32,633 bases of DNA from Candidatus Iainarchaeum sp. (GTDB taxonomy: Archaea; Iainarchaeota; Iainarchaeia; Iainarchaeales; JAAZKV01): positions 1 to 32,633 of the forward strand of contig JAQVQA010000008.1 in NCBI GenBank assembly GCA_028701835.1, in the 5' to 3' direction. The translations under genes and the position numbers were made by a program. Position 1 is the first letter of the stretch, and each line of letters starts with the position of its first letter. Below, piece by piece: positions 10,208-26,310 of this stretch. The notes beneath the pieces were generated by a model. That model ran no database searches and was not told the origin of the DNA. It saw only the letters and a program-made list of their open reading frames with translations.

Positions 10208-10308
10208 AAATTAAATAGATAATAAAAGGATATTAACTTTTCTTTTACAGCTAGAAACCATTAAATACAACTTTTTTCATCAATTATTACAATTGAAAGG
10301 TGATTTAA

Positions 10309-11019
10309 TTGGAGAGGACAAAAACAGGAATACCAGGGCTTGATGAATTGCTAAACGGCGGAATCCCAAAAGGAAGTAATGTTCTAGTTACTGGAGGAGC
10401 AGGAACCGGAAAAACAATACTAACAACACAATACTTGTATGAAGGAGCCTTAAAATACGGTGAACCAGGAGTTTTTGTTACACTTGAAGGAAATATACGA
10501 GATATTGCATGGAACATGGAGTCATTTCAATGGGATATTAAATCACTTCAAGACCAAGGAATGTTTACTATTTACAAAATGAGTATGGAGTTTGCTAGTC
10601 AAAAAGAAACTCTTGAAGACAGACTAGCTGAAGAATTAAAAGAAATTGAGAGAGAAGTAAAAGACATTAATGCAAAAAGACTAGTTATTGATTCAACAAC
10701 AGTTTTTGGAGCATACCTTGAGCCAAGTATGCTAAGAACAACATTATTCAAACTTGCAGATAGTCTAAAAACATTTGGATGCACTACAATTTTGACTGCA
10801 GAGACTCAAGCGACAAAAAATACTTTCTCTTCATTTGGAGTAGAAGAATTTGTTGTTGATGGCGTAATAGCATTATACTTTACTCCCCCAAATAGAAGTT
10901 TGTTTGTAAGAAAAATGAGAGGAACTCAACACGATGCAAACCCACACCCCCTAACAATAGGTGGAAATGGAATAAGTGTCAACCCAAGAGACAATATTAT
11001 TTGGGATGCAATTAAATAA
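10309..11019 (+). CDS. KaiC-like RecA-superfamily ATPase
   Basis: TTG start with AAAGGTGA upstream; TGIPGLDELLNGGIPKGSNVLVTGGAGTGKT (Walker A), RLVIDSTTVFG (Walker B). Confidence 0.9.
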   Translation: MERTKTGIPGLDELLNGGIPKGSNVLVTGGAGTGKTILTTQYLYEGALKYGEPGVFVTLEGNIRDIAWNMESFQWDIKSLQDQGMFTIYKMSMEFASQKETLEDRLAEELKEIEREVKDINAKRLVIDSTTVFGAYLEPSMLRTTLFKLADSLKTFGCTTILTAETQATKNTFSSFGVEEFVVDGVIALYFTPPNRSLFVRKMRGTQHDANPHPLTIGGNGISVNPRDNIIWDAIK

Positions 11020-19711: not shown

Positions 19712-20152
19712 TCAAACAAAAAAATTTTTCTCAGCATCATTCTCCCCTGACAAACGTTCCCTTTCAGAAACATCCTTTGACGAAGCAACCTTATTAGTTT
19801 TATGAGTCTTAGAAACATCAATAATAAAATTATTATGAATAATATCCCTTCCAATTAGAATAGAATAAGGCAAACCCTCCCTATCCTCAATATTAACACC
19901 AGTCTTTATTTTCTTTCCTTTAACCAAAATAATTGCTTCCGCAATCGCCCTTCGAGTATAACCCCTCTTTGAAGAAGCACTCTTAACTTTAACACTTGAA
20001 ATAATTGGACCCACCCCCGCCTTAGCAGCAACTCTTACATCAATAGAAGTCCTAGTAGCCCCTGTATCAAAAAGAGCCTTTTTTGTAACAACCCCAATCT
20101 TACCCTTAATTTGAACCGATTCAACCAAACCAATAACCTTTTTTGAAACCAT
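19712..20152 (-). CDS. RimB-like retropepsin-type putative protease (PF05618-like)
   Basis: KKALFDTGATRTSIDVRVAAKAG (DTGA), FIIDV, LPYSILIGRDII. Confidence 0.82.
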   Translation of the reverse strand: MVSKKVIGLVESVQIKGKIGVVTKKALFDTGATRTSIDVRVAAKAGVGPIISSVKVKSASSKRGYTRRAIAEAIILVKGKKIKTGVNIEDREGLPYSILIGRDIIHNNFIIDVSKTHKTNKVASSKDVSERERLSGENDAEKNFFV

Positions 20153-20274
20153 CTAAGCCATAATAGGAAATAGTTCTTATTAAAACTATTGGTGACCAAA
20201 AAAACTCTTTTAAAAAATAATTTAACTAAAAAGCAAAGCCTTTTATTAACCACTACAAATTAATAAAATTATAA

Positions 20275-21219
20275 ATGAACATACTTATTTTAGCTGAAAA
20301 AAAAAAGAAAGTTCAAAACTTACTAAATGCATTAAATGAATCTAAAAACACCACTTACCTAAGATTATCAAAAGTAGTTTTAGTAAGCAAAAACAATAGA
20401 ACAAGAATAAAAGCTTTTGGAACCGAACTTGAAGAATACGACGCAATTTATATACAAGCAAGAACCTCCTTATCCCCATTTATTGAACCACTACTTGAAG
20501 AAATAGAACAAATAGGAAATTATACAAATATAAAAAAAGGATCATATTACATTGGAGAAAATGAACCATACTTAACTGTAGTTCTATCCCAAGCAGAAAT
20601 ACCAACCCCAAAATCAATCTCAACAGGTTCTGTTAAAAATATTGAATCAATTGCAAAAAAAATACAATACCCTTTAATAATAAAAACTTTCTTTATAAAA
20701 AAACCCCAACAAGTGCTATTAGTCAATTCTCAAAGAGAATTAAAGTTATTTATTAAAAGTATAAAAACAGAGATTGATGGCTTCTTAATAAGAGAATTTA
20801 TTCAAGGAGACATAATTTCTTGTGCAGTAATTGGAGAAAAAATATTTCCAGTAAAAAGAAAATCTTCTCAAACTAATTCAAAAGAAATTGAACAAGGAAA
20901 AAAATACAAATTGAATCAAAAAGAAAGAGAAATAATACTAAAAACACTGAAAACAATAGGTTATGACATAGCAAGAATTGATTTAGTGAAAGGAAAAATA
21001 ATAAAAGTAGAACCAATTATTCCATTTGAAGAATTTAGAGGAGTTTATACAAACCAAATAGAATTACAACTAGCAAATCACCTAACTCAAAAAGCACTTG
21101 AACATGAAGCAAACAAAATAAGCCCATATGACTTTTTAGGAATAAGAAAATTCCTTTCTAAAACATTCTTTGCCCCCCTAATAAAACACTTGACTAAAAT
21201 ATGGAGAGATAAACAATGA
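20275..21219 (+). CDS. RimK-like ATP-grasp protein, probably catalytically degenerate
   Basis: Order matches RimK (PTPKSI...YPLIIKTF...DGFLIREFIQGDIISCAVIG...YDIARIDLVKGKIIKVEP) but Gly-rich loop and metal motif altered. Confidence 0.75.
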   Translation: MNILILAEKKKKVQNLLNALNESKNTTYLRLSKVVLVSKNNRTRIKAFGTELEEYDAIYIQARTSLSPFIEPLLEEIEQIGNYTNIKKGSYYIGENEPYLTVVLSQAEIPTPKSISTGSVKNIESIAKKIQYPLIIKTFFIKKPQQVLLVNSQRELKLFIKSIKTEIDGFLIREFIQGDIISCAVIGEKIFPVKRKSSQTNSKEIEQGKKYKLNQKEREIILKTLKTIGYDIARIDLVKGKIIKVEPIIPFEEFRGVYTNQIELQLANHLTQKALEHEANKISPYDFLGIRKFLSKTFFAPLIKHLTKIWRDKQ

Positions 21220-22109
21220 AAAAAAGACTTGCAATAATTGGTTCAAAAACATTCAAACAATCAACAATAAACGCCATGACTGAAGAAGCTAAAAAAAAGT
21301 TTGAGACAGTAGTCTTTGCTCCAATCAACGAATTAATCATTCAAAATATTGACGGGAAAACAAGCGTTTTATTCAAGTCACAAAACTTACTAAACTTTGA
21401 TGCAATATACCCCCGAATATCTTCAAGAGACATGCTACTAGGAGAAACACTACTAAAAGCAATTGAAAAAAGCAAAGCATACTGTCCAGTAAATATACAA
21501 GCATACCAAATCACCAACCACAAATTCTATACTGTACAAAAATTAACAAACGAAGGAATTGCAGGAATAACTAGCACACTATTCATCTCCCCAAAATACG
21601 CTGACTATGCCATAATGGAAACAGGATACCCCTTTGTAATGAAACTAATTTCAGGATTTGCAGGAAAAGGAGTAGTACTAATAAACAATAAAGAACAAAT
21701 GGAAAGCATACTTGATGCAATTCATTTATTTGAAGAATTCATTTGCACACAAAAATTCATTAAAGGAAAAAATTATGATGTAAGATGCTACGTTATTGGA
21801 GACTACGTAATAGCAGTTAAACGAACAAGTAGAAAAGGAGAATGGAGAGCAAACGTTTCAAAAGGAGGAAGTGCAGAATTAATCAACCCTACCCCCGAAA
21901 TGCTAGAAATCGCAAAAAAATCTGCAAAAATATTAGGGACAGATATTTGTGCAGTTGATTTAATGGATAAAAAAAAGAAGTGGGTAGTAATTGAAGTAAA
22001 TTTTATGCCAGGTCCATTCAAAAAATACCTTGGAACAACCATAATCCAAGAATGGTTAAGATTAATATCCAACAAAATAGAGTCAAAAGAATCAAATCAA
22101 ATAAATTAA
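21216..22109 (+). CDS. RimK-like ATP-grasp ligase
   Basis: YPFVMKLISGFAGKGVVLINN; FIKGKNYDVRCYVIGDYVIAVKRTSRKGEWRANVSKGG; ICAVDLMDKKKKWVVIEVNFMPG; ATGA overlap with upstream gene. Confidence 0.9.
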   Translation: MKKRLAIIGSKTFKQSTINAMTEEAKKKFETVVFAPINELIIQNIDGKTSVLFKSQNLLNFDAIYPRISSRDMLLGETLLKAIEKSKAYCPVNIQAYQITNHKFYTVQKLTNEGIAGITSTLFISPKYADYAIMETGYPFVMKLISGFAGKGVVLINNKEQMESILDAIHLFEEFICTQKFIKGKNYDVRCYVIGDYVIAVKRTSRKGEWRANVSKGGSAELINPTPEMLEIAKKSAKILGTDICAVDLMDKKKKWVVIEVNFMPGPFKKYLGTTIIQEWLRLISNKIESKESNQIN

Positions 22110-22191
22110 AACTAAAAATAAAAACAAACCTTAAAAATAACTTCTAATTAAATTAAATAAGTTTAATAAAAACAAAATAATTATTCTTTTT

Positions 22192-23307
22192 ATGAAATTT
22201 TATAACTATACTTTGGTTGACCAAAAAATATGTCAACTAGCAGCAACAATAGAAACAAATATTCTAAGCTATATTAATCCAATCAATCTTGATGAAGAAA
22301 AAGAAAATTTTTTCAATACACTAAACAAAAAAGAACAATACAACCCAAACTTTAACTACGTAGCAAAAAACCCTATTTACAAATATTACTCAAAAAACAT
22401 TACCCTCCCAGTATTCAAAAACGAAATGAACGAATTATTCAAAGAAATTGGATCAGATTCATTAGGATTAATATTTGAAAGAAAACTCCTTGATTTATTT
22501 GACAGAATTGAACTAATCAAAAGTGTAGGAACCGAAAATTTTTCAGAAAACTCACAAGGTTATTATGGCGAAATAACATCTAATGCAAGAAAATATGCTC
22601 AAGAAATAATATCAAAAAAAATTGAGCCAAAAGAAAACACTTTAACATTTGAAGAATCAAAAAAAATAATGGAATCAGCTTTACATGAAAGAAAATTAAA
22701 ATACAAGGTAATTGAAAAAAAGACTCCCGGATCAAAGGTTTCAGTGAATATAAGAACTAAAGAAATTATGATATCAAAAAAAGCCCAATTATCAAAAATG
22801 GATTTATCTAGATTAATAGCTCACGAAATAGAAGGACATATTTATAGATACGAAAATGGATGTACCCAACCTTACAAAATATTTTCAAGAGGACTAAGCA
22901 AAGAAACTCTAAAAACAGAAGAAGGAATCGCAGTATACATAGAACAACAAGAAGAAATAAACATTGACGAACAACTCAAACAATACGCTGGAAGAATAAT
23001 CGCAATACAAACTGCAAAAAAACACTCTTTTTTTGAAACATTTGAAGAAATGAATAAATATTTTAACAAAGAAGAATCATTTAACCTCACTCTAAGAGCA
23101 AAAAGAGGAACCTTTAACCAAGAAAAAGGAGGGGCTTTTTACAAAGACTCACTATACTTACAAGGATACTTAGAAATAAAAGAGTTTACAAAAGACAGAA
23201 ACTTAAAAGAACTTTATTACGGCAGATACTCTATAAATGACGCCCCGTTAGTTTTCGATGTAGATGGACTAATAAAACCAAAATATTTTCCAAAGGTGAA
23301 AAAATGA
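22192..23307 (+). CDS. DUF1704 (MATCAP / QEGLA-motif) metallopeptidase-like protein, copy A
   Basis: LIAHEIEGHIYRYENGCTQPYKIFSRGLSKETLKTEEGIAVYIEQQ. Confidence 0.85.
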   Translation: MKFYNYTLVDQKICQLAATIETNILSYINPINLDEEKENFFNTLNKKEQYNPNFNYVAKNPIYKYYSKNITLPVFKNEMNELFKEIGSDSLGLIFERKLLDLFDRIELIKSVGTENFSENSQGYYGEITSNARKYAQEIISKKIEPKENTLTFEESKKIMESALHERKLKYKVIEKKTPGSKVSVNIRTKEIMISKKAQLSKMDLSRLIAHEIEGHIYRYENGCTQPYKIFSRGLSKETLKTEEGIAVYIEQQEEINIDEQLKQYAGRIIAIQTAKKHSFFETFEEMNKYFNKEESFNLTLRAKRGTFNQEKGGAFYKDSLYLQGYLEIKEFTKDRNLKELYYGRYSINDAPLVFDVDGLIKPKYFPKVKK

Positions 23308-24380
23308 ATTCACTAATGAAAAATGACGAGTTTATTTTTAACTCGTCAAAAAAAATTGAGAAAAATTTTCTTGACTCAATTAACCCTATTAATTCGATAA
23401 AAGAAAAAAAAACTTTTTTTCAAGAACACAATAAATTCATTGAATACAACCCAAATTTTGAATATATTAAAAAAATAGATTATTCAAAAGAAAAAAATAA
23501 TTTAATCGAATCAGAAAAAATAATAGGGAAGAAAATGATTGAGAAAATATTCAAAACAAGAATCTGCAATTTATTAAAAGAAATTGATTTAATAGAAAAA
23601 ATTAACACAAAAAAATTTTGTAATAGTTCAATAAAACTTTTTGGAAAACCAAAAAATAGTGAAACAAGACTTGCTGAAGAACTAATTCAAAAAAAATTAA
23701 AAGTTTTAAAGAAAAATATTAAACCAAATCAAATCAAAGAAAAAATTCAACCCCTACTAAACAAAACTGGATTTAAAGCAGAATTAAAACAAAATATGTC
23801 TGCAAAAGCAGCAGTAAACTTAACTAAAAAAAAGCTGTTCATTAATACTAATTCAAATTTCAGTAAAAGTGATGTCACTAGATTTAAAGTTCATGAAATA
23901 GAAACCCACATATATAGATATCTTAACGGATTAAACCAACCATTCAAAACACTCTCAATAGGCTCTGGGGAAGAATACCTAAAAACTGAAGAAGGACTAG
24001 CAATATTTAATGAATTAAAAATAACTCAAACCAACTCTTTTCAAGAAAAAATAATTGCCGCGAGATTATACGCAATTAAATATGCTCTTAAACATGATTT
24101 TTTTGACACATTTGATGAATTAAATAAATTCTTTGAAAAAGAAGACGCTTATGTAATAACCCAAAGAGTAAAAAGAGGAATACCTTATTGTGATAAAGGA
24201 GCATTTACTAAAGATTACTGCTACTTTTCAGGATTATTAAAAATAACTAATTTTGTAGACAAAGGCGGGAAAATTGAAGATTTATACTATGGGAAAATAA
24301 GCATTGAAGAAACTAAAATAGTGAAAAAAATAAAAGAAATAAATAAACCAAAATACTTACCAAAACACTACACTAACTAA
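23304..24380 (+). CDS. DUF1704 (MATCAP / QEGLA-motif) metallopeptidase-like protein, copy B
   Basis: FKVHEIETHIYRYLNGLNQPFKTLSIGSGEEYLKTEEGLAIFNELK; ATGA overlap with copy A. Confidence 0.85.
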   Translation: MNSLMKNDEFIFNSSKKIEKNFLDSINPINSIKEKKTFFQEHNKFIEYNPNFEYIKKIDYSKEKNNLIESEKIIGKKMIEKIFKTRICNLLKEIDLIEKINTKKFCNSSIKLFGKPKNSETRLAEELIQKKLKVLKKNIKPNQIKEKIQPLLNKTGFKAELKQNMSAKAAVNLTKKKLFINTNSNFSKSDVTRFKVHEIETHIYRYLNGLNQPFKTLSIGSGEEYLKTEEGLAIFNELKITQTNSFQEKIIAARLYAIKYALKHDFFDTFDELNKFFEKEDAYVITQRVKRGIPYCDKGAFTKDYCYFSGLLKITNFVDKGGKIEDLYYGKISIEETKIVKKIKEINKPKYLPKHYTN

Positions 24381-24939: not shown

Positions 24940-25350
24940 CTATTTAAATACTAAAACATCCCCAACTCTAACCAAACATTGCTTTTTACCTTTTAAAAAA
25001 ATTGAACCCTCAAAACCCGATATTAACTCCTTTACCGAAGAATTAAATTTCTTTAAATCAGAAATACTAAATTCAACGCCATTAATCTTTGTTTTCATTC
25101 TTTTTTTCAAAACACCTTCATCAACAAACCCAAACAACATTACTTCTTTACTAATGTCATAAACACTCTTAACAACAAAAATATTTCTCACAGCTTTTTT
25201 TGAGACTTTAACTTGTTTCTCTCTAACATGAATAGGGATAATAACATTATCTACAGAATCACCTTCATTCAACAAATCTCCCTCAACAATAGATTCATTC
25301 TTATCAACTAAAGCCTTTTTTTTCAAAAAACTAATCAAACCCATATACAA
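24940..25350 (-). CDS. Hypothetical protein resembling a standalone translation-GTPase domain II beta-barrel
   Basis: NIFVVKSVYDISKEVMLFGFVDEGVLKKRMKTKINGVEFSISDLKKFNSSVKELISGFEGSIFLKGKKQCLVRVGDVLVF has an EF1A/IF2 domain II-like pattern. Confidence 0.55.
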   Translation of the reverse strand: MYMGLISFLKKKALVDKNESIVEGDLLNEGDSVDNVIIPIHVREKQVKVSKKAVRNIFVVKSVYDISKEVMLFGFVDEGVLKKRMKTKINGVEFSISDLKKFNSSVKELISGFEGSIFLKGKKQCLVRVGDVLVFK

Positions 25351-25548: not shown

Positions 25549-25562
25549 GTTTAAATATAAGT
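25549..25562 (+). promoter_or_regulatory. Candidate archaeal TATA element upstream of the Lys-rich micropeptide gene
   Basis: AGGTTTAAATATAAG about 60 nt upstream of an ATG with strong SD; AT-richness lowers specificity. Confidence 0.4.
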
Positions 25563-25614
25563 TTGTTGTTTCTATAAATAGAACTATTGATTTAGTTTGA
25601 GGGGTGAAAAAATT

Positions 25615-25656
25615 ATGGCAGCAAAGAAAAAGAAAAAAGCAGCAAAGAAAAAATAA
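25615..25656 (+). CDS. 13-aa Lys/Ala micropeptide MAAKKKKKAAKKK
   Basis: ATG GCA GCA AAG AAA AAG AAA AAA GCA GCA AAG AAA AAA TAA; SD GAGGGGTGA with 7-nt spacing; hairpin 20 nt after stop; not in the ORF track because too short. Confidence 0.6.
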   Translation: MAAKKKKKAAKKK

Positions 25657-25675
25657 AGTAAATAATTTTTGTTAC

Positions 25676-25701
25676 TAGTGGAAGAATTTTTTCTTCCACT
25701 A
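25676..25701 (+). terminator. Perfect 11-bp hairpin with TTTT loop after the micropeptide ORF
   Basis: TAGTGGAAGAA-TTTT-TTCTTCCACTA. Confidence 0.55.
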
Positions 25702-25800
25702 CAACATTTTGTAAAACTAATTTTTATTAAAAAAAATGATTTTTTTAGAATTTTTTCTTCCACAGCAGGATTTAAAACCCCTCAATACTAAAAAATAATT

Positions 25801-26310
25801 ATGAAAATAATTGAAATAAATGAATTTACTTACTTAAAAAAGTCAAAAATACACAATAATGGGGTGTTCGCATCAAAATTCATTCCAAAAGGAACAAGAC
25901 TAATGGAATACACTGGCGAATTGGTTTCAAAAGAAGAGGGTACAAAAAGATGCGATTTGAGTCATGCAGAACACAAAAAAAATCCAAACAAAGGAGCAAT
26001 CTATATTTTTGATATTGATGAAGAAAATGATTTAGACGGAGACACTCCTGATAATTATGCTAAATTTATTAATCATTCTTGTGAAACAAACTGTGAGTAT
26101 GAACAAGAAGGGAAAAAAATATTTGTTCAGTCAACAAAAGATATTAATAAAGATGAAGAACTAACAATAAATTATGGTTTTACTTGGGGAGAAGAAGATT
26201 ATTTTGAACACCCTTGTAAATGTGGTTCAAAAAATTGTGTAGGATATATCCTTGATGAAGATGATTGGCCAAAACTAAAAGAACACTTAAAAAAGAAAAA
26301 ACAAAACTAA
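25801..26310 (+). CDS. SET-domain protein lysine methyltransferase with post-SET Cys cluster
   Basis: GVFASKFIPKGTRLMEYTGELVS; AKFINHSCETNCEYE; DEELTINYGF; post-SET HPCKCGSKNCVGYI. Confidence 0.92.
   Translation: MKIIEINEFTYLKKSKIHNNGVFASKFIPKGTRLMEYTGELVSKEEGTKRCDLSHAEHKKNPNKGAIYIFDIDEENDLDGDTPDNYAKFINHSCETNCEYEQEGKKIFVQSTKDINKDEELTINYGFTWGEEDYFEHPCKCGSKNCVGYILDEDDWPKLKEHLKKKKQN

Follow-up and report, generated by a model that had tools for sequence, protein, structure and literature searches.

A 13-residue Lys/Ala peptide gene and its hyperbasic relatives across an archaeal order

The DNA analysed here (the window) is a whole contig, C26, of 32,633 nucleotides from the genome of a Candidatus Iainarchaeum species (G000; 742 kb, 52 contigs). 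An archaeal origin is indicated by a histone-fold gene, a PriS primase of archaeal/eukaryotic type and TATA-type promoters, and the small genome suggests a DPANN lineage. The window contains a real gene for a 13-residue Lys/Ala peptide, MAAKKKKKAAKKK, one of the shortest in a scattered set of stand-alone, all-basic mini-proteins across the archaeal order. The gene has a promoter-to-hairpin architecture and is conserved in the sister species, its relatives recur in the order and occupy conserved addresses in other families, and the group is not linked to SET-domain genes, one of which lies beside it in the window. The product is probably a tail-like protein that neutralises or compacts nucleic acids (rough probability 0.6).

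The peptide gene and its counterparts in the genus

A 13-codon ORF with an SD site, a TATA box and an 11-bp hairpin, located upstream of a SET-domain gene, had been described in the first-pass annotation, and all the particulars checked were confirmed. The features of the locus are listed below, together with their conservation in the sister species (G001) and in a third member of the genus (G004).

24940-25350, minus strand: EF-Tu domain-2-like gene, divergent neighbour of the peptide gene (PF03144 at 22.6 bits, under the cut-off; synteny in G001 and G004)
25550-25557, plus strand: TATA box of the peptide gene, TTTAAATA, a perfect TTTAWATA 65 nt 5' of the ATG
25599-25607, plus strand: SD-like site, GAGGGGTGA, read from the sequence and identical in G001
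25615 (ATG)-25656 (TAA), plus strand: 13-codon ORF of the hyperbasic microprotein MAAKKKKKAAKKK (sequence and G001 orthologue)
25676-25701, plus strand: terminator-like hairpin with an 11-bp stem and a 4-nt loop (predicted fold), conserved in G001 apart from a 3-nt change in its loop
25771-25777, plus strand: possible TATA-like element of the SET gene, TTTAAAA, 30 nt 5' of the SET ATG (sequence only)
25801-26310, plus strand: SET-domain protein of 169 aa, KMT2/MLL-like SET and post-SET (PF00856, E = 8e-23)

The peptide carries a charge of +8, and 144 bp separate its stop codon from the SET ATG. Folding of region 25657-25720, which holds the hairpin, gave -17.2 kcal/mol (z = -4.2), while an Rfam scan of the window returned tRNAs and nothing else. 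When the window was Markov-resampled at orders 1-3 (100 windows each), ORFs of at least 10 codons with at least 85% K/A/R numbered 0 in the 300 resampled windows and 1 in the real window.

The orthologous peptide of the sister species, MAAKKKAAKKKAAKKK, was 16 aa long, and the sole difference between the two ORFs was a 9-nt indel, which lies in frame. Aligned columns were 95% identical between the TATA box and the SD site, 100% across the ORF and 98% over the hairpin-bearing 3' UTR; in the flanks, identity was 82% for the upstream spacer, 87% for the downstream spacer, 83% for the SET gene and 80% for the EF-Tu-D2-like gene. By these values, selection maintains the peptide gene as a whole, promoter and hairpin included. 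Since the UTRs are conserved like the ORF, the identities between these two genomes alone cannot separate a coding from an RNA function; the wider relatives do. In G004, a 24-aa peptide adjoined the same EF-Tu-D2-like gene with no SET gene adjacent, and within the genus the peptide adjoins the EF-Tu-D2-like gene in 3 of 3 genomes and the SET gene in 2 of 3.

Other features of the window could also be recorded. A cluster at 19712-24380 comprises two RimK-like ATP-grasp ligases (20275-21219 and 21216-22109) followed by two paralogous MATCAP-type (PF08014) metallocarboxypeptidases (22192-23307 and 23304-24380), beside a divergent Zn/Asp-protease-like gene (PF05618) at 19712-20152; this arrangement of ligases and carboxypeptidases is reminiscent of a tail ligation/removal cycle. 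At 10306-10983, a KaiC-like frame is broken by one in-frame TAA, and it may be a pseudogene or have a mis-set start, because an ORF starts at 10309.

Relatives and recurrent genomic addresses

Stand-alone Lys-rich ORFs devoid of acidic and aromatic residues were found in 30 of the 81 genomes of the order, distributed over 12 families. In total, 31 genes of 11-123 aa were collected from these 30 genomes, plus a second, tandem ORF of 10 residues in G015; the 51 of 81 genomes that yielded no member are to be read against non-exhaustive search patterns and the incompleteness of many genomes. A pattern of SD plus ATGGCNNNNARRAARAAR matched 18 of the 81 genomes, 14 of the 18 loci being stand-alone hyperbasic ORFs, and the reversed-pattern control matched 0. 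The AAKKKAAKK pattern was found only in G001 and G002 among 98 genomes because the spacer residues vary. A GGGGT-SD pattern retrieved mostly ordinary proteins starting with MAxKKK, the peptides appearing only in G000, G001, G057 and G065. A DNA search with a 261-bp region across the order produced many low-complexity matches, among which G001 alone was full-length; the remaining matches yielded members only through their ORFs.

The 30 tabulated members comprise 1176 residues, of which 597 are K, 167 A, 144 R, 120 T, 63 V and 38 P, with none of D, E, F, W, Y, C or H. Because some members were picked up by filtering on K/R content, part of their high K/R share reflects that selection; the acid-free composition of long members retrieved solely through their first six codons does not. 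An SD-like G-rich element preceded the ORF in all 30 tabulated relatives, a perfect TTTAWATA at -90 to -30 was present in 17 of the 30 against 1.6 expected from shuffles, and a hairpin 3' of the stop codon was seen in about half of the members. Two arrangements of micro-ORFs were also observed. In G015:C48 (L033 1386-1545), the tandem ORFs MAAKKKAKKKARR (13 aa) and MAQKKKKKRR (10 aa) each have an SD site, with a hairpin and a T-run between them, and in G034:C7 (L089 1437-1505), the micro-ORF MPCCCCGGVKKKPKAKKGKKKK follows a strong SD and joins a four-cysteine start to a lysine tail.

Four recurrent addresses could be distinguished. The first, 3' of the gene for a KaiC-like ATPase (PF06745) and converging with those for tRNA-Phe and tRNA-Lys, is occupied in G002, G006, G007 and G009 of one family and in G015 of another (families f1 and f7); in the G009 stretch, tRNA-Lys alone was seen. 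Partial forms were present in G008, where the peptide adjoins KaiC, and in G020, where it adjoins the tRNAs, and the tRNA-Phe/Lys adjacency extends to family f12. The peptide was absent from the KaiC loci of G001 and G004, which makes relocation inside the genus likely, though not proven; the KaiC locus of G000 lies at a contig end. The second address lies between the genes for PriL (PF04104) and PriS (PF01896), co-directional with them, in families f15, f8 and f10, and the peptide stands directly 5' of PriS in G021, G026 and G073 (f13, f18 and another f8 genome). When PriS loci were fetched without regard to peptides, one was present at 11 of 30. The PriL-PriS loci with a hyperbasic ORF of 11-123 aa are L062, L058, L059, L123, L125, L127, L133 and L140. 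At the third address, occupied in three f2 genomes, a DUF63 gene lies on one side and a TP_methylase gene on the other; the fourth was found in two f17 genomes. Common descent between the addresses cannot be shown, because low-complexity sequences may arise repeatedly.

Proposed function and comparison with known basic proteins

In the proposed mechanism, the group would consist of free-standing Lys-rich polycations of 10-123 aa, mostly K with A, T, V, P and R, whose composition suggests disorder. Each member would be transcribed from its own archaeal promoter with an SD leader and often a 3' hairpin. Made as separate proteins, they would play the part of the histone H1 C-terminal tail or of chlamydial Hc2: with no preference for sequence, they would bind the phosphate backbone and so neutralise or condense DNA, and possibly RNA, together with the histone-fold protein encoded in the same genomes. 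Length and spacer residues would be able to drift freely because only charge density would matter. Translation, abundance, nucleic-acid binding and a chromatin role are what we infer for the group as a whole. The primase address suggests DNA as the partner, whereas the tRNA and EF-Tu-D2-like addresses are compatible with a role on RNA. The 13-residue peptide with its charge of +8 may by itself have only a weak affinity for DNA in salt. A histone (PF00808) was present in 64 of 79 genomes, including all 23 of the 23 best and the window's genome, and the idea that the peptide substitutes for a missing histone was rejected on account of this presence.

The likeness to an H1-type tail, proposed in the first-pass annotation for the window's peptide, extends to relatives of up to 123 aa, which share the AAKKK/PAKK-type disordered polycation character of the linker histone C-terminal tail. 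No Pfam match to the winged-helix globular domain of H1 was obtained in members up to 123 aa. Tail-only H1 proteins, polycations of the same type, are known in trypanosomatids. The bacterial proteins Hc2 of Chlamydia and BpH1 of Bordetella (PF07382) contain Lys-rich repeats spaced by A/V/T/P, vary in length through in-frame gain and loss of repeats, and lack acidic residues in their DNA-binding part (PMC2848022). Composition, predicted disorder and length drift of the archaeal peptides match that part (PMC2848022) as well as the H1 tail, since they are likewise Lys-rich, variable in repeat number and free of D/E in 30 members, but Hc2 is a bacterial protein of 165-237 aa and the archaeal peptides have 10-123 aa. 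The best PF07382 score was 24.5 bits (a 59-aa member) against a 40-bit cut-off, and the window's peptide, at 13 aa, is below the length that can be scored. The lack of a globular domain places the peptide outside H1, and the score places it outside PF07382, but it would work like these proteins without being classed with them if the proposed function is right.

The ribosomal micro-proteins eL41 and bacterial bTHX, of about 25 residues, are also small and very basic, but they contain Arg/Trp and have a nearly fixed length, and the peptides described here are Lys/Ala repeats of drifting length. A role of this kind, as a ribosome- or tRNA-associated polycation that stabilises rRNA or tRNA, is the strongest of the alternatives, although we regard it as unlikely. 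The small size would agree with it, as would the tRNA-Lys/Phe genes adjoining the peptide at one address, the EF-Tu-D2-like neighbour with its sub-threshold match to the tRNA-binding Pbp11, and the binding of RNA also by chlamydial Hc2 (PMC2848022). However, the extreme length drift of 11-123 aa does not resemble that of a ribosomal protein, the primase address indicates DNA, and the peptides have neither Trp nor the Arg-rich motif of eL41.

A leader peptide or non-coding RNA, in which the unit would regulate the gene behind it by attenuation and the peptide made would be of no consequence, is a considerably weaker candidate. The 5' and 3' untranslated parts are conserved equally with the ORF and a hairpin lies 3' of the stop codon, as such a unit would have, but in-frame relatives reach 94-123 aa, the hyperbasic composition persists despite DNA drift, the downstream gene varies, and the window's Rfam matches are all tRNAs. 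A lysine attenuator for the SET gene in particular was rejected, as the downstream gene is not constant.

The SET neighbour and the wider meaning

The SET gene is intact, as the first-pass annotation had reported, with NHSCETN, ELTINYGF and CKCGSKNC all kept. Its product shows the catalytic NHSC, the ELxxxY motif and the post-SET cysteines of a lysine methyltransferase, and its best PDB match was the SET domain of human KMT2D (4z4p, E = 3e-20). No SD site precedes the SET ATG, and the gene is possibly short-leader or leaderless; since the peptide gene has its own promoter, SD site and hairpin and the SET gene has a TATA-like element and no SD, separate transcription units look likely. A second, divergent SET-domain gene of the same genome was observed at G000:C31:13672-13860, with no Lys-rich ORF nearby.

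The first-pass annotation had proposed a possible substrate-writer pair. In the strict form of this reading, the peptide would serve the neighbouring SET enzyme as a dedicated substrate, and methylation would tune the binding of the peptide. The two genes are adjacent and co-directional in G000 and G001, the SET and post-SET motifs are of an intact KMT2-like type, and precedents exist in cpnSET, which methylates Hc1, and Go1-SET, which methylates MC1-alpha (PMC3980110). These resemble the present case in combining a SET enzyme with a basic DNA-binding protein within one genome (PMC3980110), but the present locus differs in showing no general linkage and in having a SET activity that is putative. 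PF00856 matches were found at 26 places in 19 of the 79 genomes searched, and a Lys/Ala peptide lay upstream at 2 of the 26, which are the orthologous loci of the sister species. Genomes with both peptide and SET numbered 6 against 6.6 expected (Fisher p = 0.79). The peptides of G004 and G002 have no adjoining SET gene. Among named GTDB genomes, the only SET relatives were three Bryobacter-type bacterial loci (about 40% identity to the window SET), none with a basic ORF nearby. With linkage confined to the two sister species and transcription apparently separate, the pair idea rests on one ancestral adjacency. The reality of the peptide gene and its tail-like character stand, while the SET link falls away; the two genes are neighbours by local accident in a pair of sister species, and a dedicated pair is improbable, more so than a leader. 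The SET enzyme, whose activity is putative, may nonetheless accept the peptide as a methylation substrate alongside other basic proteins. Adjacency in a single genome says little in favour of an enzyme-substrate pair.

Least probable is a chance ORF in A-rich DNA: the spacer is AT-rich and AAA codons are many, but the resampled windows held nothing comparable, G001 keeps the SD site and, through an in-frame indel, the ORF, and recurrence in the order contrasts with 0 control matches.

Archaeal histones have been described as tail-less, and archaea as devoid of known H1 homologues (PMC6136690). Searches of the open-access literature turned up no account of archaeal micro-proteins of this kind. 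Some members are shorter than any usual gene-calling threshold, and the PriL-PriS and KaiC-tRNA loci are clear places to seek overlooked genes. A bolder proposal, to which we give somewhat less than even odds, is that a free-standing, histone-tail-like polycation class, with members down to 10-16 residues, is a widespread chromatin or replication component in the order, kept between primase subunit genes in several families. Partnering the tail-less histones of archaea, it would be the first counterpart of the linker-histone tail in that domain. If this is true, separately encoded all-basic mini-proteins would show small-genome archaea adding a tail function to tail-less histones.
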